Notes under the pieces: model-generated
Databases searched by the model: none
What the model was told of the DNA's origin: nothing
What the model saw: only the letters and a program-made list of their open reading frames with translations
Made by a program: the position numbers and the translations under genes
NCBI GenBank assembly: GCA_947561395.2
Contig: OX387182.1
Location: 52,537,283 to 52,601,282, forward strand
Origin: Buxus sempervirens
Taxonomy: Eukaryota; Streptophyta; Magnoliopsida; Buxales; Buxaceae
Direction of reading: 5' to 3'
DNA: 64,000 nucleotides
In this document: in pieces, positions 9,310 through 35,874 of the stretch
Position numbering within the stretch: position 1 is the stretch's first letter
How the letters are laid out: each line of letters opens with the position of its first letter

Positions 9310-9385
9310 TTTGATTATAACCGAAATTGAATTTGGGTTATAAGCTATTTTATGTATAACTGAAATTCAATTTTGGTTCATAGAT
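9310..9385. repeat. Palindrome cluster of LTR family Z, 5' part
   Basis: Two imperfect palindromes of the form ACCGAAATTGAATTTGGGT and ACTGAAATTCAATTTTGGT. In the LTR's own order they precede the set at 20075-20185 that lies before the TATA box. Confidence 0.6.
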
Positions 9386-10254
9386 ATCTTTTGCAGATTT
9401 TTTTGCCAGACTAATCATTGGCGATCTTTGAAAAGATGTAAAACCCCAAATTTTTGATTAATAATTTAGAAATTGTTTTGGTAATAATAATAATAATTAT
9501 TGGTGAATATTTCAGGAATATGAAGAGCAAGGGTATTTTGGGAATTTCAGAGATTAATTGAAGAGATGAATTATTATTTATGGTAAGTGGTTGTTATATA
9601 TTTTGTAGCATGAGCATTCAAGAGATACTATAATTAAATTAAATGAATTAACTATAGTGTTAGTGTAGGTTGGCATTGTAGAGGGGCCATCAACAAATCA
9701 TTGGTGTTTAAATGAGTTGGGCGGCAAAGCAAGGGGGTATAAAAAGGAGAAGGAAGTTAGTTGGAGGGTTTTGCTTGGTCGGATAGAGTTGGAATCTTTT
9801 GGGGAACAAAATGAGGAGAAGGAGGAAGAAGATCAGATCTGAGGAGAACTTGATCTAGTCCAAAGAGAACCGAAAAGATGAGATGAGTTCCTCGTGATCG
9901 ATTGTAATAGAGAGAGAGTGAATTGGATTTGCTTAGAGCATTGGAGAAATTGAATAACCTCCAGATCAGAAGAGAATTCAAGTAAGTAGTGCTCTCTGAT
10001 TTAAATTTTCTAGTATAGATTCATCTATTCTCGATTGAATTGTGATTTACCAAATTAGAATGGTTTCAAGCTATCGTAGATGTTGATTAGGGAAATTCTA
10101 CGTTTAATCTCTTTGAATTAAATAGGAAAGCATGGAATAAGGTTCTAGACATGTTCTAGAGTATAATCGAATTGTTTTTAGCAGTTATTTTTGGTTTAGT
10201 GTTGATCGAATTGAGGATACAGAGACAAAATAGCTGCTGTCGAAAAATTTCCAA

Positions 10255-10305
10255 GGATCGCTCAACCAGACCGCTTGGGCGATCTGTCAAGCGCCCTTTT
10301 CTTTG
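10255..10305. repeat. Palindrome in LTR family F (forward copy)
   Basis: Contains GCTCAACC..GGTTGAGC-like and GCTTGGGCGATC arms ending AAGCGCCC. A close repeat of it is at 18563-18665, which was about 90 bp away before the inverted LTR inserted between them. Confidence 0.5.
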
Positions 10306-10383
10306 TTAAAAGTTCTGAAGAATAGGAGAAATCGCTTATGTAACGCCCCGGATCCGTGTTGTTCATTAAAGATATAACACGTC

Positions 10384-13161
10384 TGTGAGACATGGAAAAA
10401 TCACTGAGATGGTTCCCTCCGTCATCACACGGGCTAAACGAAAATGGGAGAGTCGCCACCATCCAATTTTAAAGGTGTGAATGGACACCGAAATTCATCA
10501 AAATAAGCAAATTGGCAAATACTAGAGTAAAAATAACTCTACTTGAAAATAAAATCCAGAGATGGGTAAGGGGATTAGATTATGAACGGGGGAAGGTGTT
10601 AGGCACCCCCACTCACCCACAAAAGGTGGTTGCCAAGTGTTGTTTATGCTAAAAAGTAAGAAAGCTTGCTAAAATCATTAAAAACCTTGAAAAAGGATTA
10701 AACAAATGTATGATACTTTCACATGAGAAATCCAAATGAATTCCAGATCTTCTTTTATGTCAGTATCACTTCTAGGACATCACCATTAAATGGAAATCAA
10801 AGCAAAACTCGAATAAAACCAAGTTGAGACAAATCTGGGAAATTTGGTAAAGGATAGTGCCATTTGTCTTGAAATCATTCAAATCCAATTTAAATTGAAT
10901 CAAACCAAATTCATTTGAAAGATTATGATAAATAGAAGACTCATGCAAATTTTCAATTAAATCCGGTTAAAATCTTAGGAGTTATGCTCCTTTGAAAGTT
11001 GCTGTTGGAACTCAGTAAAAGTAACAAGTAGGCAACTTTGGAAATTCATTTAGAAACATTGGTTCCATATAAATCCATGAAATTTGGTGTGAATGAAGTA
11101 TGTATGGCTATCTTTCAAATGAAACTAGCCTCATATAAAAATTCATTCGGATGTGCCTTGGGTGACCTCCCGAACAGGCCCCGAGGATCACTGATTAACC
11201 CAGAAAAGTGCTGTTGAGCAGTTCTGAGTAAATCGGTCACCCACAATACAAATGGAATCAAAAAATTATGAAACCAACTGGATTTGAAATTAGACTTCTG
11301 AAGGAAAATACAAAAATAAAAATCACTCGAATCGGACTTAAAACGAACACATGGCGCTCAGTCAAAGTGACAGGTTCCGCAATCTGGCCTGAACTGACCT
11401 ATCAACTTCGACTGAGTGGTGTCAAAAATCCACTTCATAAAAATTGATGACATTTTGCCGACATAAACTAGACAGCCTCACCTTTCCTATGGCATTGGAA
11501 TCACTCCAAAATTCATCCGGACAATGAAGTTACGAGTGTCCGAAGTTGGGGTACAGCTGCTGTCCAGTTTAAGCCTTTTTAAAGAATATCAACTCCAAAC
11601 AGTGGTAAGGTGTGTGGAATCCGAGCAATATGAATCCAAATCATTTGAAAGTCATTGAGAAATGTCCCAGAATTGTTTGGGGCTATTTATTTCAGATCTA
11701 TCACAATGAATGCAATAGATCTGAAATACAAGCCAAATCCGACAAAACAAGTGCAATATGTGCATGTGTACAAATCCTTTCTTCAATCACAACATAACAA
11801 CATATGGCATTTATATCAATCAAATGGGATTCTAAAAAGACCTAGGGTTCCGTTCCATTCTCGTTTCCCTTAGTTCTCTCTCCCCATTTAACGGTTCTTC
11901 GAGATAGTCTTAGGGTACTTTGAGTATGAAACGGTTTTCATAACGGTTTTTATAGAATCAAAAGGCTTTTCAACAAGGTTCTAACACTAAGGATCAATCC
12001 TCAGTCTCGTTTCCCCTAGATCCCGCCTTCACGTTTTACAGCTAGGGAGAGTCTTGAGGTACTTTGAGTAGAGGAAAGGGTTACATACACAAAGAGTAGG
12101 CCTTATTCTACAGAAAAGTAGAAGAAAGAGCTAATCCTAGAATGTAGGAACAGAAAAATAAAGAGGGGTTTTAGGCTTACCTTTGTTTCTAGAAGCAGTG
12201 TGGCAGCAGTTTCTTTCTTCACTCGGAGCTCTTCAATCTCCAACTTCTTGGCCATTTGCTTAAGGAGGAGCCTCCTATTTATAGGCAAAGGCTGGGTTAG
12301 GGTTTGCATGATGCTAGACACAAAATGATGTCTAGAGTCCACCAACCTAAACCCTAAAGCTATTTTTGAGATTTTCACTTTTTAAATGAAGGATATGATG
12401 GTAAAAAGTGAAAACTCTCGGAAAACCCTAATTTTGAGCAAAAACCTTGTATCCGACAAATCAGGTCGGATACAAGCAATTCTCTTTGTATCCGACATTA
12501 TCTATCGGATACAATAAGGATCTTTTGTATCCGTCATTATTTGTCGGATACAATAAAGATGTTTTGTATCCGACATTATCTGTCGGATACAAAAAAGAAG
12601 AAGCTTTTATCCGAATTTTAACACAGGTAATACTTATTTACATGTAATATCATTTAAGTAAATGTCCTCGTATTTTTTAATCTTCATTTACTTAAGGTAT
12701 TACATGTAAATAAGCAAACACCTCCCATTTGAATCCATTAAAAATAGTTCCAGACCAAAATTCCAAGTGAATAAAAAGTCAACCTTCCTGTTCCAGGCTA
12801 AATTCCAGTTTTTCAAGTCTAGTAAAAAGATTCAACATATTAAAACCAAGGTATTCGTCAAGATTTAAAATCTCAAAAAATTCTTTTATGCAATAACATG
12901 GTTAAAAACCTGATTACCGGGAAAAATTATCTTGAAATCATGCTTTAAAAAATATTTCATTTTCTGGGGTCAAAAGTGAACAAAATTCAACCAGAAAAAG
13001 TTTGACTTTACACAAAAGATTGAATTCGGGCCTTTTCTTTTGCGGTTTTGGATTCAAATGGGTTAAGGATCTCAAACCCAATGCTAAGAATTGAAAATTC
13101 CAATAAGATATTTCTCTCCTTCAAGATTTATCAAAAATCGTGCAATTTTGGGGTGTCTACA
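10384..13161 (-). mobile_element. Solo LTR, family X
   Basis: 2778 bp. On the minus strand it starts TGTAGACACCCC (13161) and ends CATGTCTCACA (10384). A perfect target duplication ACGTC lies at 10379-10383 and 13162-13166. A reverse TATA box is at 12275-12284. A four-unit palindrome array at 12447-12592 lies upstream of that TATA box in element orientation. It is the innermost level of the nest (hAT > Z > F > inverted F > X). Confidence 0.88.
12447..12592. repeat. Four tandem 29-bp palindromes in LTR family X
   Basis: Four units at 12447, 12486, 12525 and 12564, spaced exactly 39 bp. Each is TTGTATCCGAC, a 7-base loop, then GTCGGATACAA or a one-base variant. The arms are kept while loops and linkers vary. 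Confidence 0.92.
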
Positions 13162-15084
13162 ACGTCTCACGGAGGGTTATGTATGGGCCCACATTTCATA
13201 TATTAACTTCCATTATCAACATGGGACATTCATCAGAGTGCGGAAATATAGATTCTTTTATTAAGTGTGGGAATTCTAATCAATCATGAATGTTATCAAT
13301 TCTAAACAATCTGAATATCAAACCCAAGACTATTCTATTACAAATTTAATAGTTCAAATCCATCAATAAAACCTACTAAGATCTAAGGAAGATAGTAATC
13401 CTCCTCCTTATAGAAATTTGCCGGCTCTACCCCGATGGTTGGATCCTCACCAAGAGTATCTGAAAACAAAACAAAATAAATGTGATGAGATATGAATATC
13501 CCAGCAAGTAGCACATGCATGCAGAAAACAATTTACTTTAGTTCTAAAACATGCCACGAATAATAATCAATCACGAGTAACCAATAGGAGTTATCATAAA
13601 TTCGGAAATCAACAAGTTCTCAGTAATAAAGTAGTAACAGTGTTCAAACAACAAATATAAACAATTCACACAGTGGTCAATGTCATGTAGTTCACTTATA
13701 TTGTGTAATTCGCATGCCGGAGCGACATCAAAGCCTCATTGTACACAGTCCACCTGGCACTCTTAAATGATCGACGGCCTACTCAGGGATTCGTCATCCA
13801 ATGTTGGCCTACTCCGGGTATTGACATTGACAACCCGACCTATACAAGGACACAGGTTGCTCTACACTGGTCATGGCAACACTCATGGCCATGCAATTAC
13901 GCCAATAAAACCAACTCATTACATTACTAAGCTTAAGTCGAGGATCCGGGACAAGCTAGACCAATACTTAACTCAAACCATTACTTTTAATCACAAATGA
14001 ACTTGCAAATAAAACCAACCTCTGGTGCAACAAATACTAAAAGCAAACCATCTTTATCATGGGTCACTCAAGACCATCTCTATTCTTTAGAAAGCTTTAA
14101 ATATAGTTCATACCCAAAAGCCAATATTAAACCAATTTTTGTATGCAATAACTCAAGAGAAATCTCTTTATAAAATCTAACCAGTGTGTAAAAGTTAAAT
14201 AAAACTTAGTTAAAATAGTGTCACATTCTAAAATCTCAGTATCAAAACATGGCTACAAAATAAATAAAAATAGCACGGTTCTAACTCATATACATATAAC
14301 AATATATATGCTGAAATTCCCTATTTCCATCTCTTCACATGTTCACACAATTGCATTTGTATAAATTCTCTGATTAAGACTATTTCGGTTCATAATTAAA
14401 CCTTGATTAAGTTCAGAAAAATAATAACTAATTGATAGAAATCAGAATTTAAGTGGTTAAGCAATCGGCTACAACTCACTACACAAACTCTCTAGATTTC
14501 TTACTGTAGACAGTTGATTTTTGTACCCCTAAAATGCAGAAAATAAAAAATTTTAATTAAAAAGTAAAACCCCGAGGGGGTCAAAATTTGACTTTTTGAT
14601 CCAAAGAGAATTGACCATCAAACTTCCTCTCATTGAAAAGAGCATTTCGACACGGTTCCAACACAATTGAGTTTGCTGGAATCGGAGTCCGGATGAGGAA
14701 GTTATGAGTCGGTCAAACTTTTGGGGAAGCGAAAGTTGACTTTTTGCTTGACCCCAATTCAGCTGCCAAACTTAATCCCAGTGGATAGTGGGTTCTGAGC
14801 CGATTTCAACGACATTAAGTTTGCTCGAATCGGAGTTCGGACGGAAAAGTTATGAACAGTTGAAATTTCAAGAAAACTGCCCATGTGGCAAAACAACAAC
14901 AAAAAGCAGAATAAATGAATAAAAGAAGTAAAAGAAATATTTATTAAAAATATCTTAATCTTTTAATAATATTTTAATAAGAGAATCTAAGATTTTTTAA
15001 TATAATAATAAGAAAATTGGATAAAATCTTTATTAAAAATCAAATTTAATAAAGTGTTTCAAATCCAGCATTTAAAAAACGTGC

Positions 15085-15240
15085 TCGCCCATATTTGAAG
15101 TGCGGGCAAGCCTTCTAGAAGCAGGACACGCATCCCGTACGGCGACAGCTGGCGGATTCGCGAGATTTTGAAACGTGAATAATTTCGCCCGTATTTGAAG
15201 TACGGGAGAGGCATGCCCGCCCTTCAAATACGAGCACGAA
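15085..15240. repeat. Palindrome cluster upstream of the TATA box in LTR Y
   Basis: Three imperfect palindromes of the type GCCCGTATTTGAAGTACGGG lie just before the TATA box at 15247. A second set lies at about 16165-16265 downstream. Confidence 0.75.
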
Positions 15241-15794
15241 ATTTTGCCTATAAATAGGGGGCCAGCCCCCCCCCATTTCAACAAGCTGGTTCCTTTGGCT
15301 TTCCCCCCTCTCCTTCTCTGCTCCTTGCTCGTCCAACCCCTGTCAAAGCTTTGCCAAAATCCCACTAGCCCAGAAAAATCCCCATTTTACCCTTAAGCCC
15401 TGTCAAAGCCCATCCTTTTCATCTCTTTCAGCATAAGAAGCTAGTGGGCCCCTTTTCAAACCCATTTCGAAGAATCAACAGGAGCGCGGAAGTGCTGCCA
15501 AAATCCACCCACTGTCCCCACCTTTTTTCTCTCTCAACCCAAAGCAAGGGAATCCCTTTTCAAACCCATTTCGGAGAATCAAAGGGAGTGCGGAAGCGCT
15601 GCCAAAATCATTCGGAGAACCTCCACTCCTCAGAACAAGGTAATAATAGCACGGTAAGCTCTCCGTTGACTCTGTATTTAACATGTACTATTATCAACAA
15701 GTCATTGATTAATTATTTTTAAAAGCCATTCTCTACTGACTTTTTATCTAACTTGTTTGCTTATTTTGTGCATATAAACGGGGCTCCCCGGGGC

Positions 15795-15814
15795 GGGGGG
15801 GGGGGGGGGGGGGG
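15795..15814 (+). repeat. Run of 20 guanines
   Basis: An uninterrupted G20 inside LTR Y. The sister LTR has only short G runs at the matching place (about 27095-27110). It could be slippage or an assembly artefact. Confidence 0.9.
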
Positions 15815-17189
15815 AGTTCCCTCATGCGAAATAACGGGAGAGGAGAGGATTCTTGTTAAGAAAATGGTCTAACCAAATATTTCTGAATTAACTCTTTTTT
15901 ATGTTGATTTATTTAAAAGAGGGTTTTGTCCTCTTTGAAATCTAATTGTACCCCGTAATCCTTCCCCTCTCTCCCTTCTTGATTCTACACGTACAGGTTT
16001 GTGAATGGGATTAGGCGCAGTATGAAAGGATGAGATCTTTTCTCTTGGCGGGACTCCGAAAAAGTGGATAGTTGAGCCACCTGCAGAAGTCGGCGGACGG
16101 GGAAAAGAGGCCGGCGAATCAGTTCCGGCCAAAATCGGTGTAAAAATGCGAATTCGGGCGAAAACTGTATTTTCTGTACGGTCTAGGCATGCCCATATTT
16201 ACTATACGGGCAGGCCTGAACCGCATTAAATTTACAGTTCGGCCCAACCAGTATAGCAAATACGGGCAATTTTAAAATCACTTAAAAAACCATTTTTTCC
16301 GGCTTGGTTGGACCCGATCCGACCCATCCTTGTAAGACTTGACCCCCTGGGCTTCTTGGACCTTTCCAAGCCCATTTTGAGACTTTGGGCCTAAGTGGGC
16401 CCACCAAGACTTCGTGGGCCCTCCAACGGGCCCACATCCCGTCTAGCTCAACCAGGGCCCATTTTGATAAATGGGCCCAAGGCCACTTGACTAATTGCCA
16501 GTGGGTCAAATCCAAGCCCATTGGACCCTAAAAACCTTAACTCATTAATTTTGTAAATATTTAATAAACCTTAAAATCAAATAACCAAAATCCAATAAGG
16601 GTTACCCAATAACCCAAATTGGGCCTTGGGCTTAAGCCCAACTTGGATTCCACTGGGCCCTCCAACGAGGCCCATACCAGACCCATTCCATCAATTGATA
16701 AAAAGATAAAATCAAATAAAAAGGGGACCCACACCATCAGTGGTACCACCAGACCAAATAAGTGTGCATGTTGGCCTAAGAATTGGGTAAGAACTAAGTT
16801 GACCAGAACGAGGGAAACCCATGGGACCCGTCAACCGACGAGGCGGGCTAGGGTGTCTTCGGACTTCCCTAGACGTAATCGAGAACTTGCTCAATTCTCT
16901 AATAAGCCGTAGACCAAAATAATTAAGCCCGAATAGGTGCCCCTTTGTGTCTGCCTGCACCTCTCAGGCAGTGGCAACTCCAAAACAATCCCGAGGCGAG
17001 CATCACTTCGCATGCGCCTTGTCGTGCGGCCGAAATTGGGTGCGCACACTTACACTTAGATTTACTTCCATTCATTAACTAACGATCACTTCAGTAGGTT
17101 TATAACACTTGTTTAGATATCCTAGAGCAGCAATTAGTGTTTAGAAACTTGATATAAACATTCCCTAGAATCAGCCGCACTAGGCTGTT

Positions 17190-17555
17190 GATTTGAAGCT
17201 GGGCGCCAACCTCCTCCAGGTCAGCCATCCTTGGCGCCCATGAGCAATCTCCATAAATTCCCAACCTTTAATCAATTTAATTCTCTCAATATTTACTGGT
17301 GTGAAATTTGAAGATCATAATCACTTAAAGCTAATGCTAACATCCTATTTAATCTCTTAGACAAGTTTTTAAACAACTAAACTACAGAAATCAGCTTAGA
17401 AATAATCAGCCGCACATGTCTATTTACATTTGAAAGGGGCGTTGACCTCCTGTCAGTCAGCCATGGTTGGCGCCCCTCAGCCATCTCCAATTTTGAACTA
17501 ATGCTAACCATCGCTGACCTCTTGTCAGTCAGCCCTGGTTAGCGCCCAATGCATT
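17190..17555. repeat. Three palindromic repeats in inverted LTR F
   Basis: Three repeats of GGGCGCCAACC..TTGGCGCCC type, about 60-120 bp apart. Each pairs arms around a CTCC/TCAGTCAGCC loop. They lie downstream of the reverse TATA box in element orientation. Confidence 0.7.
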
Positions 17556-18562
17556 TTTCTTCCGAATCATATTTTAGTCAATGCTAACTCAATTATATCA
17601 AGGACTGAACCAAATTTAAGGCTCCATATCTATTTAATACTACTTATAATCCTTCTAACATCCTTATACAATTGATTTGGATTTAATTCCATCAAATTCA
17701 TGCTTCGATTCAAAGATTAATTCATAAAAACAATAACAGATGATTATACTAACTACTGCAGATAACTCTTTCAAATCATGCTTTCGATTGCAAATCCAAT
17801 GGAAAACCAAGTGATACTTACTTGTACAGATGAGCAATTCTTCTAAACTCTAAAACCTCTGACCACAGCACCTCTGAAGTGAGAAATTCAATGGCCGATT
17901 GTCTCTGTTTCATAGGAACAACCAGATTTGATCAGATCTGAGTTTGATCTTCACTTAACATCTAATTTGCACCCTAAATCCCAAATGAATTTCACTTACC
18001 TGATCTCTTTTGAGATCTGCAACCAGAATTGATCGATCCTCCACAAATCTCCAATTGCTGAATTCTTTAACAGCAAAACACTCTCCTCCGATTAGCTCCA
18101 AGCACCTCTAACTCAGCAAACCCTCAGAACTCAGCTTCTCCTCACTACTTAGCTCTTAGAATTGTCTCTGATTTCATCAAACGAAACTAGCAACTTGAAA
18201 TGAGCAGCCTGTTTATAGGCTTCGTTGGCACTCAAAACCTTTCATGATCTGCTGGGTGCTCACCCACAAATCCTCTCTACATAACACTTTTTAACCTTTT
18301 GATTATATACTTGCCTCTCCAGCAATTAATTTACCTAGCACCCATGCCAACTTAAATTAAATTTCTTAACATAAAATTATCTATTCAGCTAGATTATAAC
18401 CATCACTTACTTAAATTATAACTCTTCTCATTTAATTTCTAGAAATTCCCAAAAATTGCCCTTGCACCTCAGTTATCTGGAAATTCACCCATAAAATTTA
18501 ATTAGAATTATTAATTGATTCTCACAATTAATATTAGCAAAAATTTGGGGTTTTTCAGCTTA

Positions 18563-18665
18563 AGCGACCTCTCAAGCGCTCGTAAGTTTGAAATTAGATC
18601 TGATTGATGTGAATTTTAAGTCGGTTGCTCAACCAAATTGCTTGGGCGATTTGTTGAGCGCCCAA
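18563..18665. repeat. Palindromes in the forward LTR F, right part
   Basis: Contains AGCGACC..AAGCGCT and TTGCTCAACC..GTTGAGCGCCC arms, related to the motif at 10255-10305. Confidence 0.5.
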
Positions 18666-20074
18666 CTCTGATTTGGTTGGTTTGGAAGAAAATTAAGAGG
18701 GTTTACCACATGGATTAATTTCTGAGCAAATTCAAGACATGTATAACTAGGGTTTAGGTCTCTAGAGATGATTTCCAGTGGCCAATTGAATTTATCGAAT
18801 AAATCGTAAAATTTGGGTACGTTCTACTTAATGTGGTTTTGGATTTGGGATTTTAAGTAAAGTGTGTTGCTATGGTGATTTTAACTGAATGGGATGATTT
18901 CATACACTTGTATTAGTTGATTATAAACTTGTTTTAACTTCTAGAATTTCATAATTATGGTTTTCTATTGTTTTGGGCAGATTTAGCCTAGTTTGGAATT
19001 TCCGGACAGATTTAGATTACTTATTCTATCTCATGATTGAATGGTTTTAAATATTGTTTCGATTACTGAATTTGCCTTGAAGGCATGTATTTGAGATCCT
19101 CCATGATAGAGTGGATTTGGTCATGAGTGACCCATGTTTATATACTTAAGCACATTGGTTTACGTGTTGGCTTACTTGATGGTTTGTTTTTACTTAACTT
19201 AGTCTATTTTGCCTTGGATCCATGACTTAAGCTTAGTAATGTAATGTGTTGACTCCATTGATAGAATTGCATGGCCATGAGTGTTGCCACGACCGGTGTA
19301 GAGCAACCCAAACCTAGAGTAGGCTGGGTTGTCAATGCCGAAACCCGGAGTAGGCCAGTATTAGATGACGAAACCCTGAGTAGGCCATCATTTTAGAGTA
19401 TCAAAACCCTAAGTAGGCCGAACTGTGTACATGGAGGTGTGGATGTCGCTCCGGCATGTTGATTAATCAATTAAAGTGAACAACATGACATTGGTCATGT
19501 TGTTACTTGGTTTATAATATTTGTGTGGTTACTTGATTAGCGGTGTTAACGAGATAGTATTGGTTTATCCGTATTCCTTTGTATTATTATTGATTCATTT
19601 ATTGAAATTATTTGTCATGGCATGATTCTAGAAATGTGGAAAAATGTTTTAGCATGGATGTGCTACCTGCTGGGATATTCGTATCTCATTAGGTTTTGTT
19701 TTGTTTTGTTTTCAGATACTCTCGGAGAGGACACGACTATTGGGGTAAAGCCAAAGGAGTTGTATAGGGAGGAGGATTATTATCTTCCTTGGTCATTGTA
19801 GGTTACTTTGTAGAATTGAACTATTAATACTTGTATTTTGTTTGGGATTGAATTGGTATTGGAATTGTTTAGAGATATACATTTACATGGATTGGTTTAA
19901 TTCCCAAGCTTAAATAGAAGTTTTAATTTCTGCACTCTGATGTGTATGACCCATGTTATTAATATGAGTTGGTATATGAAATTTTGGGCCCATACATAAC
20001 ACTCCGTGAGATGTGTTATATCTTTAATGAACAACATGGATCCGGTGTGTTACACAAGATTTGGCTGATTTGAC

Positions 20075-20185
20075 ATTAATGTAACTGAAATTATATTTCA
20101 GGTTTGAAGAAAATTATGTATGACCAAAATACAATTTCGGTCATTCATGAAAATAAGGTAACCAAATTGAGATTTCGGTTACATT
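20075..20185. repeat. Palindromes upstream of the TATA box in LTR Z
   Basis: Three imperfect palindromes built on TAACTGAAAT..ATTTCAG, TGACCAAAA..TTTCGGTCA and GTAACCAAA..TTTCGGTTAC, ending about 10 bp before the TATA box at 20195. Confidence 0.7.
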
Positions 20186-21424
20186 ATTTTTGGGTATAAA
20201 AGCTGATTTACAGTTCATTTCAAGGGGTTCAGTATTTTTCCGAACTAAGCTCTCTCTCAACCTCTTTTCCCCACCTCATAAGCCTTCGAATCCCCTCCCT
20301 CCCTCACCAAATCCACATCACTTGAATCTCCTACTCTCTTCACTTAAACAAAGGAGAAGACCAAGAGAACACAAGTAAATTGAAGGGAAGGTGCTCTCAA
20401 GTCTTCAAGGTACCTCCAAACATACCTAAGGAGCTTGCTCCTTTTAAGGTAAATCTTCTTTACATTTTTTATTCAATATATATGAAATCCATGTCATTAT
20501 AAGCATATTTTGCATACAAGTACATTTTTAGTGCATTTCTAGTGTTCTTTTTCAACTCACTCCTTCACTTTCTTTTATTTTCTTCCTTAAGAGAGACTCC
20601 CATGGTAAAGGGAGAAGGATAAACTAAAGGAGAGGATGAGAGACCATAGCAAAGTCTATTTAAGTCTCATTTTAGTTCATTTGGGTGTTTCTTTAAGTAA
20701 AAGGAAAAGTGTGTTCTTCCCTCTCTCTATCTGAATCTAATGTAACCTTAATCCCCCATGTCCTTTCTTTACTTTCATTTGTTACCTATATTTGTTTTAG
20801 CTCTCTCTCTAAATATCCACTTGCATGAGCTCATTTTACTGCTTTCCTTTGTTTGTGAGTGATAGAATGATCTCCTCACTCTCTAGTCGATACATAAAGG
20901 AAGCATACACATGCTCATAACTTTTATGATGTTAAGCATATCATTAATCTTCATGTACACTCCATGCTTGCACTCACACAATAATATCCTTTCTTAAAGC
21001 ATCTTAGATGGTATTTTGATCATTTCAATGCTTCTTTTGGTATGATTTGTGTGGGTATGCTACCTGGTATGGTCAAATGTGACCTAGACTAAGGCCAATT
21101 GGGCTACTTTCCCTTTCTCTTCCCATAGAGAAGGAAATGTAAAGAGAAAGGGAAAGTAGTCTCATACAGTAAATGAGACACTTAAGGTCTCATTTCAAAC
21201 CAGGGATTTCATCCCTAAGTGGAGGAGCAAGGCCTCAAGCCTTGCTTCCTATTGTTTTGATATTAAAACCGATTAGGATATTTTAATTAAGCCGCAAACT
21301 CCATTCTTAGATCATCGTGGGCCTGCCCAGAAGCCCACAGGTATCCTGGTTATCCCCAAAGACCATTGAATCCATCCCCTGTTCAGAAAATGAACAACTG
21401 TGGTTTTCTATGCTTGACAGAATC

Positions 21425-21535
21425 TGTTCTACGCTTGACCGAAAACTCAGTTCGGTCAAGTATATAACTATTCATAGCCAAAATTGGATTTCGGTTATAC
21501 ATGATTTCTAGTATGACCGAAATTGAATTTCGGTC
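21425..21535. repeat. Second palindrome cluster in LTR Z
   Basis: Three palindromes of the same ACCGAAATT..AATTTCGGT type, about 1.2 kb downstream of the TATA box; the best is TGACCGAAATTGAATTTCGGTCA (21514-21536). Confidence 0.75.
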
Positions 21536-23260
21536 ATAAATAGTTACTGGGTAGACTGATCAGTCTTTTCGGTTTAACCCAGAGAAAACTAGAAGTGAAC
21601 TTTTTGGATCATTTTTGTTGCTTTAATCCCCTTTAGTCAAAATATAATTAAATCCAATAGGGTTTTGGGTTTTCCCTTAACCCAAATGGTATCAAGTTTG
21701 GGTCCATCGACCCATCTCAAATGATTTAAGTGAATAAGATGAACCCAATTAAGGGCCGTACCTCATGAGGCTCAATTAAAGCCTAATTGGATACATGCTT
21801 GACAATTTTAGATGATTTGGTAGTGACTTAGGATGCGGGCCTACCGGGCCCCATCTCTTTAAAATAGAACCCGCTTATTTAACCAAGATGGAAGGGATAC
21901 ACAACCCTCATCCATAAAAGCCTTGGGTTTCCTAACTTAAGCCTAGGAGATAGACCCCAAGCCCATCCCTAGTCCAATTGGAATCAAATCAAGGTAAAGA
22001 TAATAAAATTAAAGGAAACTACAGTAGGGCCCGCTTAAAGGGCCCATAGATCATCCACTCTCATCAAAGAGCATAAAATCTTAATTCCTGTCTCTTTTAA
22101 CTTTAAAATAATAATTAATAATTAATTAAACTTAACCAATAATCCTAAAGGGCTTCTAGCCCTAGACTAACCCCAAAAATAGGACATATGGGCTATCCCT
22201 TAGCCCATCTTTGACCTCGCGAACCTTCCAATAGGGTCAGCCAATTAGACAAAGATTACTTAATAAAGAAGATAAGAACCAAACGGGACCTATACCACTT
22301 AAACAGTCCCCATATAGACCTAATCAATGAGTGTATATCTATTTAGGATGGGTGAGATAAGTGAGTTGACTCATAACCAGGATGACCCATGGGACCCGTC
22401 ACCCAACGGGGCGGACCGGGTGTCTACAGACTTCCCCGAACCGTAACTAAGTACTTAACCAGAATCTCAAGTTGCAGACTACCTAATAGATAAACCCCAG
22501 GGACCCAAGTGTCTGCCTGTACCCTATCAGGCAGTGGTGACTCCCCATTCCCTTGTGTACTTTCCCAATCCTGAAAGCACGCGATTCTTTGTGCTTTCAC
22601 TGGATAACACGCCGGCACATATCCCTAAAGGAGGCAAGCACACGTGCACGTTCCAACAAAGGTGCGAATCGCGGATCGACGCACGCACGCATACTATACA
22701 ACTCGTATTTAAGTGAGTATTTATTATGTATATGTATTATTGTTTTCTTTTCTTTTACATTCTTTTTGTAGTTATATAATCAACTATAAAACATAAAATT
22801 AGTAACATGTGATTTATGTACACAAACACATATACGCTACAATGAATGTGGTATTTGGATGTACATCCTTGATAAAAAAAATTGTGCAACCACATACAAC
22901 GAGCATGTGATTGGCTCATTATTTTAAAAATAAATTTTTAAAAAATAACTTAATTAAGTTTTTTCCAAATTCAATAGACCAATTAAGAGGCTGCTATATG
23001 TGAGTAGATGATTTTAATTAATGATATTCCAAATGTTTGCATTCGTATTAAAAAAAAAAAAGAAATATCTAAAAATTTATATTTTTTTGGAGCCAACCTG
23101 AACTCAGCTTGAACTCAAATAATAATGTTTGGGTTGAGTTTGTGTTTAATGAGTTTGGGTTAGGACGGGCTAATGAAAAGTTTGGGAATAGTGAATCTTA
23201 GATTAGGTTGAGCCCGAACTTAAGATATTGCAAACCAACACGCTCATACTTATAGCTCTA

Positions 23261-23868
23261 GAATTTGTATGGGAGAGATGAGAACAACGTAGGATGGTGG
23301 AGCCGCCATGAATGTACACAGATTTTTTGCCCGTTTGAACATATTATATAATTTATTAATAACTTTTTTTTGGGTATGTTGTGGTCATTATTGTTGTTTA
23401 TATTGTGATTGGTTTGGTTCGGTTTTTGCCTTAAAACAGAAACCAAATTGATTTTTATCTATTGTTATTATAAAGCAAACATCGCCTTTTCCAGCTGACA
23501 TTTCATACCCAAAAAACCTTCAATTTTTTAAAATTAATATCTATGCCCATTTGTTAAATAACTAATTGCCTAACATTATATATCCAAAACACCCTTTATT
23601 AATTCCTTTCAAATTTGTTGTCTCATAATTACGTATATAGTCCAGTAATTGAGTGTATGCGAATATACATATCGCGCTAATATCTTAAATGTTTTTTATG
23701 GTTTATTAGTTATCCTTATAGGACCTAAACCTTATTACAATCCCCTTTAAATAATTATCAAATATACCCAATTGGTTTGAACAGATTGAACCAGATGACG
23801 CCAAAGCTCCAAACATGAACTCGGTTGATGGGCCGGTTAAAGGCATGACCTTGCGCTCATGCAACCAT
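23261..23868. other. Junction between units A and B, no gene seen
   Basis: Positions 23290-23460 match 40258-40430, the far end of unit B; from about 23650 the sequence matches the start of unit A. The head-to-tail boundary therefore falls between roughly 23460 and 23650. No coding sequence is supported. Confidence 0.6.
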
Positions 23869-24639
23869 TAGAGCTGGCAACCCACCCGAACCAAACCCGA
23901 ATTAAATGGGTTTGGGTTGACCCATTTAATAATTGGGTTGGTTTTGGGTTTAGGTTTTCTCAACCCATCTAAAAACGGGTCAACCCGTTGGGTACCCATC
24001 TAAATTCAAATTAAGTTTCCTTTTTTTCCCCCCTTATATTTATATTTATACCCAATTTATACTCTATCTTATTATGTTATCAAATATAGTTAACTGATTA
24101 AGCATGTTAATTTAATATGATAAGACTTTAATCATTAAATTATTTTACGACTAATATTATTTTATTAATTTTGAGAATTAATAATATTGCTATGTATACA
24201 CAAGTTGTTTATTTATTATATAATAAGTAATATGATTATATAATTGTATTATATAAACTTTAAAAGTTACATTTTTAATACAATGCATGTGAGACTAACT
24301 ATTATAATTTTGTTTAAATTCATTTAATTGATTTTATATATTTCAATTCTTCTTCTCAATTAAATTTCTCTTATTTTTAAATTTCTTGGAAAAGATGGTG
24401 CTTATTAAGTGTTTTTATGTTATTTATTAACGGTTTACTTTGTTAAATGGAGTTTTTATATAAGCATAATTGAACTTAAAATAGGAATAAAAATTAATTT
24501 TAAAAATAAACCGGTTGAGTTGGGTTCAACCCATTAATTGTCAGATTGGTGATTTCTCAACTTGTTAGTAATCGAGTTAAACCCAACCCAACCCATTTAG
24601 CTACCAACCCGTTTACAACTTGACCCATCGCCACCTCTA
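23869..24639. mobile_element. hAT-type MITE
   Basis: 771 bp with ends TAGAGCTGGCAACCC and CGCCACCTCTA. The flanking octamers GCAACCAT and GCAACCTG match at 6 of 8 bases, an eroded target duplication. Subterminal AACCCAACCC motifs abound. Unit A lacks it at the matching place. Confidence 0.75.
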
Positions 24640-24675
24640 GCAACCTGGTGGGTTGGCTCAAGATTTTGGCACCCG

Positions 24676-24945
24676 CAATGGCGGAACCACATTATTGCCC
24701 CCCCTAGCTTTTATTTTTTAATTAAAAAAATATATTTTTATATGTTTTAATTAAAATTTATGTTTTGCCCCATCTAAAATTTCTGGTTTCCCCCCTCACT
24801 CATTGAAATTTCTATATTTCATGATAACCCCCTCTAAAATTTCTGGTTTATTCCACCAACTCATTGAAATTTCTATATTTCATGAGAAGTGTTAATTGAA
24901 AATTTTTTTTATCCCCTCAGATTTGGAGTCATAGTTCCGCCACTG
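24676..24945. mobile_element. Small hAT-type MITE with 8-bp target duplication
   Basis: 270 bp with terminal repeats CAATGGCGGAAC and GTTCCGCCACTG and a perfect duplication GGCACCCG at 24668-24675 and 24946-24953. It contains a direct repeat with TCTAAAATTTCTGGTTT. Absent from unit A. Confidence 0.88.
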
Positions 24946-25154
24946 GGCACCCGCACAGCCAACCACAAACATCTCATATGCAACTTTCAAGCTTTCCCTT
25001 TCTTGTTCACCATACTCAAGTATCTCTTATCCACAAATTAATTGCGTCCATTAAAGGGCAGATAAGATCCTTTGATGGAAAGGTGATGTGCAAAGCTACT
25101 ATGCTAGCTCTTTTTTCAAGCCATGGTTGCTATTGGCTCTCATGATTTCTCTTT

Positions 25155-25509
25155 TGTTATTTTCAAGAACATTGAAAAAGACCAAACTAATCCTTGAGGT
25201 TAATTTATTTAAATGCCAATATAACCACAAAAATATCAAACTAAATTTAAAGATTTAATGCAACTAAATAAGCTTTAACAAAATCGAAATTCCAACTTAA
25301 TTTCTCCATTTGAGTATTCTCCAAAAATTTCTTTATAAATCTACAAATATATGTAATTTTGTCATTTAGCATATAAGATAAAGTATTTTGCTCAAACTTA
25401 AATAATATCTTAGCTATAAAATATTTGGAAGGGATCTTTGTGATTATTTGTGCATATGTGAAGGGAAGTTTTGAACATCTTCTAAATGTCAGGACTTCTA
25501 TATGCATAA
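25155..25509 (-). repeat. Repeat family R39, unit B copy
   Basis: Matches 2845-3206 at the same relative place, directly next to the hAT insertion, and the inverse of 39625-40031. Confidence 0.6.
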
Positions 25510-25833
25510 GTGACAAGTAGGGATAGCAGCTAGTGGGGGTTTGGGGCGGGTTTTTTTGAACCCGAACCCGTCCTTATAGAGTATTAGCCAATACGAAACT
25601 CTAACCCATCCTTATTGGGTCAGTAACGAGGTAGGTCGGGATTGACCCTGTAGTATTAATAGATACTAAAATATGTGTTTTTAAAAAAAATTATCAATAA
25701 AAAATATATTTATTCATTAAATATGTATCTTTTAAATATGATATATACCAAAATAATATTTTAAACATATAGAAGTAATATTATAATAGACTAAGATCGG
25801 GTTCGAGACAGGTTAGGCTAAACCCAAACATGG

Positions 25834-28330
25834 TGTAGACACCTGATTTTTGCACCCCCAAAAATGCAAAAAATAAAAATTTCAATTAAAAAGTCAAACC
25901 CTGAGGGGGCCAAAATTTGACTCTTTGATCCAAAGAGAATTGGCCATCAAACTTCCTCTCATTGAAAAGAGCATTTTGACACGGTTCTAACGCAACTGAG
26001 TTTGCCAGAATCGGAGTCCAGATGAGGAAGTTATGAGCCGGTTAAACTTTTGGGGAAGCGAAAGTTGACTTTTTGCTCAACCCCAATTCAACTGCCCAAT
26101 TTGATCCCAGTGGATAGTGGGTTCCGAGCCGATTCCAATGACACCAAATTTGCTGAAATCGGACATCAGACGGAAAAGTTATGGGCAGTTGAAGTTTCAA
26201 GAAGCTGCCCATATGGCAAAACAGCAGCAAAAAGCAGAATAGATGAATTAAATAAATAAAAAAATCGTATCTTTATTTTTTAATAATATTTTAATAAAAG
26301 AATCTCGTTTTATAATATAATAATCAAAAAATCGGATAAAAATCTTTAAATAAATCAAATTTAATAAAGCATTTGAAATCCAACATTTTAAAAACGTGAT
26401 GGACCGTATTTGAAGTACGGGTGAGGCATGCCCGTATTTCAAATACGAGCAAGCTTCTAGAAGGGGACGCGTGTCGCTGTACGGCGGGACACGCGTCCCG
26501 TACGGCCGATTTTGCGAGATTTGAAAATGTGCGTTTTTCGCCCGTATTTGAATTACGGGAAGGCACGCCCGTACTTGAAGTACGGGCAAGGCATGCCCGT
26601 ACTTGAAGTACGGGCAAGGCATGCCCGTACTTCAAATACGGGCACGAAAATTTTGCCTATAAATAGAAAGGCCACCCCCCTCATTTGAACAAGCTGGTCC
26701 CCCATATGCCCCCACTATCCGGTTTTGTCTTCTCCCACGTCCAAAACCCTGTCCAAATGCCCTCTCATTCCCAAGCTTAATTTTATCCCCAAAATACCCC
26801 TGAACCACTACCTTTTCACCCTCACCTTCAATCTCCTTTCAACCTAAGAATAGGAGAACCTCTTTTCAAACCCAATTCGGAAAATTAAAGGAGGTGCGGA
26901 AGCGCTGCCAAAATCGTACGGAGAGCTACCACACATTGAAAGTGAAAGGTAATAGCAAAATGAGTGCTTCTGGTAATGTATTGTTCAATATATATTAAAG
27001 TTGATTATTTCTAAGTAAACTTCATTTCCTTCTTATTCTGTTATTTGTATTTCACCTATTCACTCCTATTGTGCATGGTTTTTGGGCTCCCTATGATAAG
27101 AGGGAGCCCCCACATAAAGGAAGGAGAATAGCCAAAGTGAACTCAAGCAAACATTTGCATCATCTTGGTTATTTTAGGAGGGGTTTGTCCTCCTTGGAAA
27201 TCTGTTTGTACCCTTAACTCACCCCTCTCTTTCCTTTTTTAATGAATCCCACCATCATGTATGCCTAAAATCAGCTAAGGTGAACATCGAAGACATGGGA
27301 GATCATCCCATTGCAAAAGACCAAGAAGAAGGAAATAGGCATTCTCGAAGCCAAAAGTATCGTTCATGAATTTTTGTAGCGGAGTTGGAATCCGGTGAAG
27401 AATGTTCGGACATCCCAAGAAGACCACGGAACTGATTCCGATCGAAATTGGCACAAAAATGCAAGTTCGGATGAAAATCGTATACTCAGAACGGACAAGG
27501 CGTGACCGTAGCTAGTCTACGGTCTGACCTGAACCGTATTAAATTTACGGTTTTGACCAGACCGTGAATCAAATACGGTCACTCAATAAAGTAACTTAAA
27601 AAACCATTTTTTCCGACCCGGGTGGACCCAAATCCAACCCGAACCGGTCTGAATCGACCCAAGAAGTTGATTGGGCTATTCTTAGCCCTCCATAGACCAT
27701 GGGCCCTTATAGGCCCACCAAGGCACCTTGGGCCCACTTGTGGGGCCCAATTTTGACCGGCCCAAACCAGGCCCATTTTCAATAAACGGGCCCAAGGCCA
27801 CTTGACACTGGCTAATGGGCCCATTCCAAGCCCGCTAAGCCCAAATCTAAAGTGTAAATAAATAAAATTTGAATAAATAACCAAATGGGTTACCCAATAA
27901 CCCAATTGGGCCCCAGGCCCAATCATGGCAACCCACGGGTCTTCCAACAGGATCCGGGTTCGACCCACTTCACTAAATAAGAAGATAAAATCAAAGTAAA
28001 AGGGACCCACACCATCAATGGTCCCCACTCAGACCAAATAAGTGTGCATGCTGGTCTAGGAAGGGTGAGAATTAAGTTAACTCAAGACCAAGGAGACCCA
28101 CGGGACCTGTCAATCGACGGGGCGGGCTAGGGTGTCTTCGGGCTTCCATAGACGTAACCGAGAACTTACTCAGAACTCTAATAAGCCGCATACCAGAATA
28201 ATTAGGCCCGAATAGGTGCCCCTTTTGTATCTGCCTACACCTCTCAGGCAGTGGCGACTCCAAACCAGCCCCGAGGCGAGCATCACTTCTTCATGCACCT
28301 CGTCGTGCGGCCCGAAATGAGGTGCGCACA
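25834..28330 (+). mobile_element. Solo LTR, family T/Y, copy T
   Basis: 2497 bp, starts TGTAGACACCTG, ends GGTGCGCACA. A perfect target duplication CATGG lies at 25829-25833 and 28331-28335. A TATA box is at 26656-26667. Two shared 5' modules lie at about 25965-26190 and the hairpin module at 28231-28251. Inserted in the hAT element. No internal region. Confidence 0.92.
26405..26645. repeat. Palindrome array upstream of the TATA box in LTR T
   Basis: About six imperfect palindromes of the form GCCCGTACTTGAAGTACGGGC, the last three joined by AAGGCAT spacers, plus a GGACGCGTGTC..GACACGCGTCC palindrome in the middle. The array ends about 11 bp before the TATA box. A second cluster with GACCGTAG..CTACGGTC arms lies at 27505-27590. 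Confidence 0.85.
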
Positions 28331-28540
28331 CATGGACCTAACCCGATTTTAATGATAGCAAACCCTAAGCATTAAGTACAGGCCAGGTTACCTGTTTAAC
28401 CCGCCACATTGCCATCCTTGGTGACAAGGGCATAAATATAATCATCCTTTTCTAAATTCCTCACAGTACACAGTGCACATGCAGGATTTTTCTTGCCACT
28501 CCCCATACATCGTCTATAAACACTTGATCATTTCCTCCAA

Positions 28541-28590
28541 CGGCCACGTCACCACAATGAAGCCAGCCTGGGACCAGAGGATACGTCACC
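28541..28590 (+). promoter_or_regulatory. Displaced ACGTCA motif pair of the unit B VQ copy
   Basis: ACGTCA at 28546-28551 and 28583-28588, matching the unit A pair at 4317 and 4355. In unit A they lie about 0.3 kb from the start codon; here the retro-insertion starting at 28616 has pushed them more than 7.2 kb from theirs. Confidence 0.5.
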
Positions 28591-28975
28591 ACAATGAAAG
28601 CCAAGTTTTATGCATTTTTTTTTTATGGAAAGCCGAGCTAAGCTCTTTCTTCATTAAATGAACACAGAGATACAAGAGATGTGGCTACAAGCCAGAAAAC
28701 ATAGATAAAACACCCATAAAAGCCTAGATGCAAAAGAAGCCAGGAAACAGGGAAGGTATAAACCCCAACAATCTGGTAACAGTTCTGAGTGAAAGTGTCC
28801 GACCTTGTGCCGAAGCAAAATGAAACCACCTGAAAAACAGGGGTAAAGTCGGACGGAGGGTCCGTCGGTAGAGCTGTAATTTTGGCCTGGACCACCCGAA
28901 GCCCGCCCAACCCAGCCCGAATAACAACCCGATTTAAGAAATAAGTTTGGGTTTGGGTTTGGGTTTGGGCCGGGC

Positions 28976-29332
28976 TCAATCTTGAGCCCGAAGTTGAGTT
29001 CGGGTTGGGCTCGGGCTCACAAGGTACAACCCGAAAAAACCCGAATAACCCGAAATATATATACTACTAAAACCCCCTCCTTCAAACCTCCATATGATTG
29101 TCTCCTGCAAACCTAAAAGTTTCTTGTCTTCTCCCATATCTCTACCACGGAAGTTGGAATTGCTCGCCCCTCTCAATGACTTACTGTCCATCTCTTCTAT
29201 TATCAATACCTCACATCGCAAAGACAACCTAGCTAGACAAACCTCTAACAAAGGAGCTCGATCGGCAGGAGCTAGCAATACAGTTGCTGTCGGTGTCGTT
29301 GTCAATATAGTGGGGTACAGTTCCAGCAGCAA
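28976..29332 (-). other. Open reading frame inside hAT copy 3, unknown product
   Basis: 118 codons, related over nearly its full length to the frame at 2287-2673. A plus-strand frame at 29094-29477 overlaps it. No family recognised. Confidence 0.25.
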
Positions 29333-30466
29333 GGGATTTGCGATACAGTTCCATCGCTCACAAGGGATTTGCGATTGCTATTTTTGTCAAATCGGGCATC
29401 TCTCTTTAAATTGGGCATCTCATCTTTCCCCATTTGTTCACTGCTTTCAGGTACTGTTTAATTCCTCTCTTTTCTAGTACTTGATCTGGATGAGATCCAT
29501 TAATGTGTGCTTGGGAGGGTTTGTTTCTTTTCCTCGGCTATGCACCATATAATCTAAAATTATCTACCTCTTTGACTACAAAGTTAGTTCAGATATTTCA
29601 ATCCCCAATCTTTTACTGCTAGATGCAAAATTTCATTAAAATTTGATTTCCGATAAGGTAGCAAAACAGAAAATCTTGTTACTTTAGTAGTATTTTATTT
29701 TACATTATTTTTAACATCAATATATATCCCCTAAAATCTTGATTTATTGTTCTTGTTTGGTTATATGAAAATGAGTTATGTGTTTCTTACGTAATTTCGT
29801 GGTTCTAATATTTGAAATGTAGTCTAACTTAGCCAAAAAAAAAAAAAAACGTAGATTCTGAAGTAATTGGAAGAGATAGGAAACATGAATATTAAGTCTA
29901 TTTAAAATTACAAAAGTTGATTGATTTTGTAAAATGTATTATTTTTAGATTAAGGTTTGAATACTTAAACAATGTAAAAATGCAATGAAACTAATTCTGG
30001 AATTTCAAATGGGGTAGGTCCTGTATGCAACATTGCAATTTTCGTGAAACAGTGATTGAGTGGGAAATGTAGCGATGCCTTGCTAATCAAGTCATCATTT
30101 TCTATCTATTGTTTCTGTGAGAGTAGAGGATGCCTTGTTAGGATTAATTCTGCTACTATATTTGTTGTATTGCTGTTAATTCCATGCGTTATGATGGAAG
30201 GTTGCATCAAATTGGAAGACATGTGAAACTCATAAATATCTTAGTGAATATTTTGTTCTAAGGCTCTTTACACACATAAAAAGTTTGGTGGACTTATAGA
30301 GATCATTTTTTAACCTAATACACAAACAAATCAATGTATGCTGTAAGCACCTCATTTTTGCGCTCCCAGAAAAACCAGAAATGCAAACCCTGGACAGAAA
30401 GTCAAACCCTAAGTGGTGAAAAGTTGACTTTTTGATCAAGTGAAATTTGGCCACCTCGCTTTATAC

Positions 30467-30990
30467 CATTGGATAGAGAATCTGGACACGGTTCCAACAC
30501 AACTGAGTTTGCAGGAATCGGAGTCCGAATGAGGGTTCTGCGGGCGGTCAAACTCGAGCAGAGCCAAAAGTTGACTTTCTGCTAAAATCCGATCCAGAGG
30601 CCTACCCCTATACCATTGGATAGAGAATCTCGACACAGTTCCAACGCAACTGAGTTTGCAGGAATCGGAGTCCGGATGAGGGTTCTGCGGGAGGCCAAAC
30701 TTGAGCAGAGCCAAAAATTGACTTTTTGCTAAAATCCGATCCAAAAGGCCTACCCCTAGGCCATTGGACAGAGAATTTCGACACGGTTCCAACGCAACTG
30801 AGTTTGCCCAGATCGGAGTCCGGATGAAGGATCTATGAGCCGGTCAAACTTGAGGGGAGCAGAAATTGACTTTCTGCTAAACCCCAGAACAGCTGCCCAA
30901 ACTTGTCCCAGTGGATAGGTCATCCTGACACGATTCCAATGCAACTGAGTTTGGTCGAATCGGAGTCCCGGATAGTAAGTTATGAGCAAA
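30467..30990 (+). repeat. Four tandem ~147-bp modules at the 5' end of LTR V
   Basis: Units begin near 30467, 30613, 30761 and 30908. Each has a CCATTGGAYAGAGAAT-type start, then GACACGGTTCCAACGCAACTG and ATCGGAGTCCGGATG. The same module occurs once in LTR Z (about 8930-9030) and twice in LTRs Y and T. Confidence 0.85.
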
Positions 30991-31241
30991 ACAAGAAACC
31001 CTAAAAACTGCCCACGTGGCAAAAACAACAGAAAAAGGTGTCTGGGGGCAAATCCGTAAATAATCAGGACAGTAAAAAATATCTGTAATTATCTGGGGAC
31101 GAATCTGTCAATATCAGTTGATGAGAAAATTGCTCAGGGACTAATTTGCAATTTCCAAAAAAAATCACCCCACATGCTTAATTCCCCACCACATCTTTCC
31201 CTCTTTCTCTCTTCCATAACTCATTCCCCATTCCCCACCAC

Positions 31242-31243
31242 AT

Positions 31244-31274
<31 letters not shown>

Positions 31275-31370
31275 CTTCATAAATCCATGTCCCCTATGCA
31301 TCCCCCCATGCATCATACTCTCATCTCTCTCTATCTCTCTCTCTCCCTCATGAGCATCCATACATGCATC

Positions 31371-31433
<63 letters not shown>
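31242..31433. repeat. (CT)n microsatellites in LTR V
   Basis: CT tracts around 31245-31275 and a long one at about 31375-31433, separated by CATGCATC-rich sequence. Confidence 0.93.
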
Positions 31434-31435
<2 letters not shown>

Positions 31436-33179
31436 ATGATTGTGCCCCCCATGCATGCATGCCCATCCCATTGCCACATGAATAAAACCCCCCAAGTCAC
31501 ATACGTATGAGGTGTTCTCCCATTTGGTGCAGATTTTTCTCTTCAAGGCATTTTTCCTCTCCAACTTCTCCATTCTCTCTCCCAAGCTCTCTTCTCTCCC
31601 CTACGGTTGGAGCTCATTGGTGGCTCTCCATCTTTCTCACCTCTCCATTCTCCCATTCAAACAAGAGAGGAGCAGCTGCTGTTGGTGCAAGAAGGAAGCT
31701 ACTCCAGCCCTTGCCTGGCTCCAAGGAAGCTTCACACCCAGTCCCCAAGGATATAAGTCCCCAAGGTGAGCTCCTTCCCACATTTTGTTTAACATAGGTG
31801 AACATGAGATAGATTGAAGCATGTAAGGTCTCATGCATATGGAAATATTTCTGTTGTGCATTTCATGTGCATTTTTCTCTCTTTTGCCATCTCTTTTCAT
31901 GATAATACAAGAGCAACTACCCTTTAAAGGTAAGATTTTCGTTTGAGCAAAAGGGAAGAAGAGGTTTTTCTTTAGGCTTGGCTTTAAAGTATTGTAAGGT
32001 TGCTGTTTTTTTACTCTAATAATATTGTTATGTTCTCTTTCATTTTACTAGAGGAGCATGTTCCTCTCACTTCATCTAATGTGTCCCATGAGTAACCCCC
32101 CTTTCTCTTCCCTTCTTTAAGCGATCTCCTTTTTTTTGATTAAGTATGTTAGGTTCGTATAAACGCGTGAAAATCATATATTGAGCATGCTCAATCTCAT
32201 TTTTAATTTCATTTGTATATGATTTAGATATTGTTGTAAATGTGTGTGAGATCTCTCTATCATCCACCATCATTTGGAGCTCGGGTGTTGTTTTTTTAGG
32301 ATCATGTAAGCACCTCCCTTATCTACTGTTTTTATGTGATTCATCATGACTTTTGTTTCTTTCTATCTACTGATTTTGGCCTCATAAAGTCACCACTACA
32401 TGGCTTTGTACATGTCCTATTTGAATGCTTATTTCCTCTCTTGTTATGAATATGCCTAGGTGTTTGTGTGTACCATAGTCTAATGTGAGTTAGAAGGAAT
32501 ATAAAATCTGTTTGCTAGTTTTTTTTTTTGTGTAAGCACGAATAAACACGCTCACACATGTATATATTGATGTGAAATATGCCCATCAAAGTGAGTTACA
32601 TGTTATTCCTTACTTTTAGGATCATGGAAAAAGGATGTTTTATTGATTGTTTTTACATGCTATACCAAGGTTTTGTTTCATGTTAGCTGCTGATTTTTTA
32701 TTTATCACATGAAGCCACTCCATGTAGCTTCACACACTTTCCATAAGCATGTTTGTTCCCCCATGTATTAGGAACATGTCTAGTGGCTTTAAGCATGGCA
32801 CTATCTACCAAAACATGTATGCATGGAAATCTAGCTTTGGTTTTTATGGTCTACTTTATTGTTTAGTTAAATTTTAACTTAAAAATGCATTTCTTGGTTT
32901 GATATTCTCCCATGTACAATAAGAGTTTGTTTCTTTTTTTAGCAAAGAAACTAAAGTAGGGATATCCAAATCCCTACTCATTCTTTTGATTTGGATCGGA
33001 GGGAGGAAGCCCCCCACCCATTCCCTTTGAGTTTGGTTTTGAAAACACCAAAAAGAGGAGCCAAATGGCCTCATTCGGACCACTGTGGGCCCACACAGGG
33101 GCCCACAAAGACCTTATATATGTCCACAAACCCTTTGGTTGGATTTGCTGTAAAAAAAAAGGTGCAAAAAAGTGTTTTC

Positions 33180-33295
33180 TCAGTGTACCCGACAACTCAG
33201 GTCGGATCACTTTAAATTTGTGTGTAGCCGACCTTTATGGTCGGCTACATTGAGAATTATGTGTAGCCGACCATAAAGGCTGGCTACATGGCAGA
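33180..33295. repeat. Palindrome cluster in LTR V
   Basis: Three units: GTACCCGACA..GGTCGGATC, GTAGCCGACC..GGTCGGCTAC and GTAGCCGACC..GGCTGGCTAC. The second is a perfect stem of ten pairs. Confidence 0.8.
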
Positions 33296-35643: not shown

Positions 35644-35874
35644 GGAGAAACCATTGAAACGTTACCCTCGCCTTAATTTCTCGTTAGCTTTATTTTGCTC
35701 CGTCAAACTATCCTTCTCTTCACCTTCTTCCTCTTCTTTCTTCTCTTCTCTTTCTCCTACCTCGGACCCACCTTTTGATCCATCATTAGCACCTCCTTAT
35801 GCCTTTTATATAAAACCTTCCCTCAACCAGGTTTTCCATTTTCAAGTATACTCTTAGGCTTTTGATCTCTAGAC

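Follow-up and report, generated by a model that had tools for sequence, protein, structure and literature searches.

The window analysed here is a 64,000-bp stretch of Buxus sempervirens contig OX387182.1. It contains four solo LTRs, X (10384–13161, minus strand; TSD ACGTC), T (14505–17048, plus strand; TSD CTTAC), Y (25834–28330, plus strand; TSD CATGG) and V (30342–34372, plus strand; TSD TATGC). All four have TG..CA ends and a 5-bp TSD, traits found in many other LTR elements, and they range in length from 2,497 to 4,031 bp. A further LTR, Z, lies on the plus strand in a 5′ part (8823–9437) and a 3′ part (20064–22710) whose ends were placed by eye, and is interrupted by the F nest. Other repeats in the window, of ~88–97% identity, pair 1386–2738 with 28869–34552 and 4613–4912 with 35851–36150.

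These LTRs had at first been described as unrelated families, which proved wrong for T, Y, V and Z, as they align at 74–87% in parts of their 5′ and 3′ regions. In alignment, Z 22359–22544 is 78% identical to V 34119–34306, and a conserved 3′ anchor, TGTCTGCCTGCACC..TCAGGCAGTGG, is present in V at 34272–34299 (plus strand) with a second copy in Z at 22510. The 5′ half of X matches the LTR at locus L138 at 77% over 490 bp. The polyprotein at L138 carries a G-patch (polyprotein piece, E 6.6e-7), and by eye the carrier element looks like a member of the Tat group of Ty3/gypsy.

Palindrome clusters and their position in the LTR

The LTRs carry clusters of an inverted-repeat unit in which CCG and CGG are separated by 11 bp (CCG-N11-CGG). 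In X, four units (12453, 12492, 12531 and 12570; period 39 bp) form a cluster at 12453–12586 on the minus strand, with a TATA-like box (12276–12284, minus strand) ~170 bp 3′ of it in LTR sense. The clusters and boxes of T, Y, Z and V are on the plus strand. T has an upstream cluster (15089–15233) with units at 15089, 15189 and 15217, the last two 28 bp apart, a TATA-like box at 15248–15256, and a downstream cluster (16193–16265) of degenerate units at 16193, 16221 and ~16249 (period 28 bp). The upstream cluster of Y (26404–26641; period 28 bp) comprises units at ~26404, 26432, ~26541, 26569, 26597 and 26625; its TATA-like box is at 26657–26665, and its downstream cluster (27506–27578) has units at ~27506, 27534 and 27562. 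What remains of the upstream cluster of Z (20085–20178) consists of degenerate units at 20085, 20124 and 20162, followed by a TATA-like box at 20194–20202; two more degenerate units lie in the 5′ part at 9321 and 9360, and the downstream cluster (21439–21533) has units at 21439, 21478 and 21517 (period 39 bp). V has a single cluster of the downstream type (33189–33283), with units at 33189, 33228 and 33267, also with a period of 39 bp.

Relative to the TATA box of the LTR, the first array is 15 to ~170 bp upstream and the second ~0.85–1.25 kb downstream. Clustered multi-copy palindromic units upstream of the TATA box occur in X, T, Y and Z, and also in survey loci L045 and L054. In V the conserved 3′ anchor follows the cluster at a distance of ~1.04 kb, and units are present at this place in 14 of the 28 survey loci. 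The 39-bp period is shared by X, V, Z and 13 of the 16 survey loci with at least two units, and the 28-bp period by T/Y and two survey loci. A core variant is common to the upstream and downstream clusters in T, Y, Z and L031. The preliminary description had placed palindrome clusters in every family, upstream of the TATA box in X, T/Y and Z and a second time downstream in T/Y and Z; this stands for X, T/Y and Z, and for V with a cluster of the downstream type only, and holds only in part for F.

The F nest has one strong palindrome (17503–17543) and two unstranded GGCGCC-type dyads with an N25 spacer (17202–17238 and 17438–17474), which fall outside the CCG-N11-CGG set. No strong palindrome with an arm GC of at least 0.3 was found at 18563–18665. 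F was considered as a member of the set and rejected, having no such unit and two GGCGCC-N25-GGCGCC-like dyads instead; it is therefore a separate matter.

Several other palindromes were seen in these LTRs. V contains GGGTTTCCGGGTCACCCGGAAACCC at 33370–33394, with similar palindromes in L044 and L057; in V and L044 it lies ~0.9 kb before the 3′ anchor. L040 and L050 (C1:4.99 and 13.12 Mb) have the same 3′ anchor, and there a different palindrome class, GGCGCTCACCTC..GAGGTGAGCGCC, replaces the CCG units near it. At L041/L042, two LTRs with matching palindromes are inverted about 5.3 kb apart (C1:5484931, minus strand, and C1:5490267, plus strand). L025 has a CCG-N11-CGG unit at 2795–2811, in sequence downstream of a 5′ LTR that is either internal to the element or nested in it.

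A shared core at a fixed spacing

For each of 64 trinucleotides at 31 spacings, we took the excess of the count over the median of that trinucleotide for all spacings. Ranked in this way, CCG at k = 11 came first in the LTR parts of the window (17 occurrences, median 1) and again in a set of 18 LTR loci, all distinct (76, median 8), where GGC at k = 7 had a higher raw count (87) that mostly reflected the same dyads. CCG-N11-CGG occurred once in 38.1 kb of control sequence from the window. A scan of the window for degenerate dyads found 22 in 15.1 kb of LTR and none in the 48.9 kb outside, and comparison with shuffled sequence, a check that the preliminary description had proposed, upheld the excess (the LTR parts, shuffled 20 times, gave 0–1 dyads each time).

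Genome-wide, CCG-Nk-CGG was found at 43,280, 163,369 and 40,613 places for k = 10, 11 and 12, respectively; the reversed-pattern controls gave 143,005, 126,325 and 105,655, with no peak at 11. Some 120,000 CCG-N11-CGG places therefore lie above the background set by the neighbouring spacings. The spacer-bearing form CCGNNAACTCAGNNCGG has 11,997 copies in the genome, compared with 2 for its reversed control. Its AACTCAG spacer is common to V (33189), Z (21439), some X copies and survey loci. In LTR sense, L045 and L054 have CTGAGTT in the upstream cluster and AACTCAG in the downstream one, so the two clusters are oppositely oriented there. Both inner bases were complementary in 64 of the first 100 listed places with the AACTCAG spacer, and paired in only 19 of the first 100 genome places of CCG-N11-CGG.

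The rule covers part of the palindromes. Of 95 distinct strong palindromes, 30 were concentric with CCG-N11-CGG and 53 lacked any concentric CCG-Nk-CGG; the latter include double units as well as unlike motifs, for example GGCGCTCACCTC. The number of loci with at least one match, a weak statistic, was 20 of 28 for k = 11, 18 for k = 8 and 16 for k = 20. Other spacings that recurred for T, across 41 loci, were k = 2 (19 loci), 3 (12), 21 (14) and 30 (17).

Paired flanks differ between families

The bases around CCG vary between families, often in pairs that preserve the symmetry of the unit. Flank positions −5 to −1 and +3 and +4 show many pair types, and family cores with differing flanks include TATCCGAC, GCCCGTA, GACCGAA and AACCGCA. 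The early statement that each family has a palindrome of its own is thus half true: the flanks do differ, but the CCG/CGG core is shared and so, in some families, is the AACTCAG spacer. Counts of paired changes are inflated because the units are related by descent. Compensating changes between the arms, which the preliminary description had proposed to test for, were absent among copies of T (0.666 v 0.661 in shuffled data; 12 double-changed cells v 125 single) and among copies of X (0.945 v 0.946).

An antisense ORF in one element type

In one element type (L138/L139), an ORF of ~290–300 aa lies on the opposite strand between the gag-pol piece and the 3′ LTR. It is frame-shifted in L138 and open over 288–336 aa in L145, L147 and L148, the three examined out of five further copies. 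Among 150 scored matches, out of 5,428 candidates, 137 had no stop in the matched part. A C-terminal coiled coil was predicted by eye, and a PDB sequence search gave only a weak match, to a keratin coiled coil (E 0.068). Pfam comparison gave the plant mobile domain PMD (E 0.032) and DUF7745 (E 0.065–0.12), all below cut-offs. TRP28 was considered as its domain; PF04195 had no match in the genome, nor in the 14 control genomes. No copy of the ORF was found in the window using the 217-aa L138 piece as query (best E 8.8).

L138–L143 form a tandem retroelement array (C1:8476221–8568156) with a period of ~15.32 kb. The AACTCAG unit and the antisense ORF each occur seven times in it, always ~10.22 kb apart; six of the ORFs match the query exactly and one at 99%. 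Where the arrangement was examined, in one element, the palindrome array has the TATA box of the LTR on one side and the antisense ORF on the other. On the same sequence, L015–L017 (C1:8865073, 8926100 and 8987127) mark a segmental repeat spaced at 61,027 bp, in which the 1.5-kb stretches compared were 100% identical.

Discussion

The clusters are probably arrays of sites at which a sequence-specific DNA-binding protein would bind as a dimer, with control of transcription from the LTR as its likely role. Each half-site would span ~10 bp around a constant CCG, two half-sites would make up the inverted repeat CCG-N11-CGG, and the units recur every 39 or 28 bp upstream and downstream of the TATA box. 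As families diverge, the CCG core and its spacing persist while the flanks change jointly on both half-sites, and this joint change would mean that each family is recognised either with a specificity of its own or by its own choice from a group of related binders. The binder may be a host factor or a protein encoded by the element. A foldable structure or dimer site had been set against shared origin with sequence turnover as alternatives. The relatedness of the LTRs, the fixed spacing and the paired flank turnover favour a dimer site and shared origin together, foldable RNA is disfavoured, and F falls outside the question. If the sites are regulatory, then with ~120,000 places a single genome would hold this regulatory-type motif in very large numbers, and the combination of constant core, fixed spacing and paired flank turnover would be a natural record of change in a regulator's specificity.

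One form of the dimer-site reading invokes a fixed host transcription factor, for example a zinc-finger and coiled-coil dimer such as LBD. Dimeric factors typically recognise half-sites that are CG-rich and set in a fixed dyad, and the units fit that pattern. On palindromic DNA, LBD dimers hold their two zinc fingers a precise distance apart (excerpts of PMC6861928). However, a single fixed specificity would not permit the many pair types at −5 to −1 and +3 and +4, and in the literature covered, in part as excerpts, a spacing of 11 was not found for any LBD. We regard a fixed host factor as less likely than not.

The protein of the antisense ORF is a candidate binder, its sole link to the sites being co-residence in one element type. 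The arrays might be targets of a coiled-coil dimer that the element itself encodes in antisense, with flank specificity shifting together with the sites, so that each family would have a private regulatory or anti-silencing switch on its LTR and antisense gene. In the one element examined, the position of the array between TATA box and antisense gene would let it act on the two alike. This version is rather unlikely. If true, LTR retrotransposons would have a self-recognition system of the VANC kind, with ~120,000 sites in one genome; the arrays in any case offer a concrete DNA target for probing the role of unexplained antisense ORFs.

The palindromes might also persist under no current selection. 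One ancestral palindrome would have been amplified in tandem, template-switch correction of quasi-palindromes would alter both arms together, and CCG would simply be inherited. The fixed unit periods of 39 or 28 bp and the common ancestry of the LTRs agree with this, and the absence of covariation within T and X copies is what decay after insertion would produce. Such a process would, however, hardly account for a CCG and an 11-bp spacing that persist across widely differing flanks, or for the core variant that upstream and downstream clusters have in common in T, Y, Z and L031, and we consider it improbable.

Finally, the palindromes could fold in LTR RNA, as cis-acting structures or, as reported for maize Sirevirus, as a source of small RNAs for host silencing. 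The arms are complementary and clustered, use of the TATA box would presumably place the downstream cluster within the transcript, and small RNAs are in excess on the LTR palindrome clusters of Sirevirus (excerpts of PMC10760457 and PMC5311732). Yet hairpins give no reason for an exact CCG spacing, which peaks at 11 genome-wide while the perfect-stem loop varies from 1 to 11 nt over 188 units that were themselves chosen for spacing 11 (1 nt, 18 units; 3 nt, 12; 5 nt, 29; 7 nt, 61; 9 nt, 15; 11 nt, 53). Sense-strand mismatches were G:T in 69 cases and A:C in 133, the opposite of what selection for an RNA hairpin predicts, the A:C excess coming mostly from T and survey loci, and Rfam gave no match at gathering scores over 8800–34400. 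RNA hairpins are thus very unlikely to account for the clusters, and small RNAs may be a by-product of the palindromes.

Comparison with known systems

Several known systems invite comparison. In VANDAL21, the anti-silencing VANC proteins, encoded by the transposable elements themselves, follow family-specific motif arrays (excerpts of PMC5735166). As here, these are arrays of short motifs in noncoding regions, which vary between related elements, spread in tandem and evolve jointly. VANC sites, however, are 9-base motifs that share one orientation and belong to a DNA transposon (excerpts of PMC5735166), whereas the LTR units described here are inverted dyads and are not arrayed in the same orientation.

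Retand, Grande and RIRE2 have ORFs between pol and the 3′ LTR that are antisense to gag-pol, for which a regulatory role has been proposed (excerpts of PMC11963269 and PMC7264820); the extra ORF described above has the same position and orientation. Retand LTRs measure 315–1,194 bp (excerpts of PMC11963269), compared with 2.5–4.0 kb for the four bounded LTRs here.

We found no published description of CCG-N11-CGG in LTRs in the open-licence literature, exact-string search included. The closest likeness is to the RM of Sirevirus (Ty1/copia), clustered palindromic units upstream of the TATA box with a CGG-CCG signature and an element-specific remainder, which were specific to Sirevirus among the elements studied (excerpts of PMC2829016). 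Common to both are LTR palindrome clusters shortly upstream of the TATA region, element-specific sequence around a CG-rich triplet signature, and additional clusters elsewhere in some elements. The RM signature is CGG-CCG with a gap of 4–6 (our count from Table 3 of PMC2829016), whereas here it is CCG-CGG with a gap of exactly 11, and the Sirevirus polarity with a short gap was not found in these arrays. The second cluster precedes ENV in Sirevirus (excerpts of PMC2829016) but lies inside the LTR here, and the carrier is a Sirevirus there and, in the element examined here, one with a G-patch polyprotein and an antisense ORF. Maize Sirevirus likewise has a palindrome-rich LTR cis-region, although its palindrome consensus, CACCGGACNNNGTCCGGTG, differs from CCG-N11-CGG (excerpts of PMC10760457 and PMC5311732). 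The CCG-N11-CGG arrays follow a rule of their own, with the Sirevirus RM as nearest precedent and with inverted polarity, a gap of 11 and two clusters in the LTR as distinguishing features. They extend what was a peculiarity of Sirevirus to an apparently different kind of LTR element, at a different spacing.
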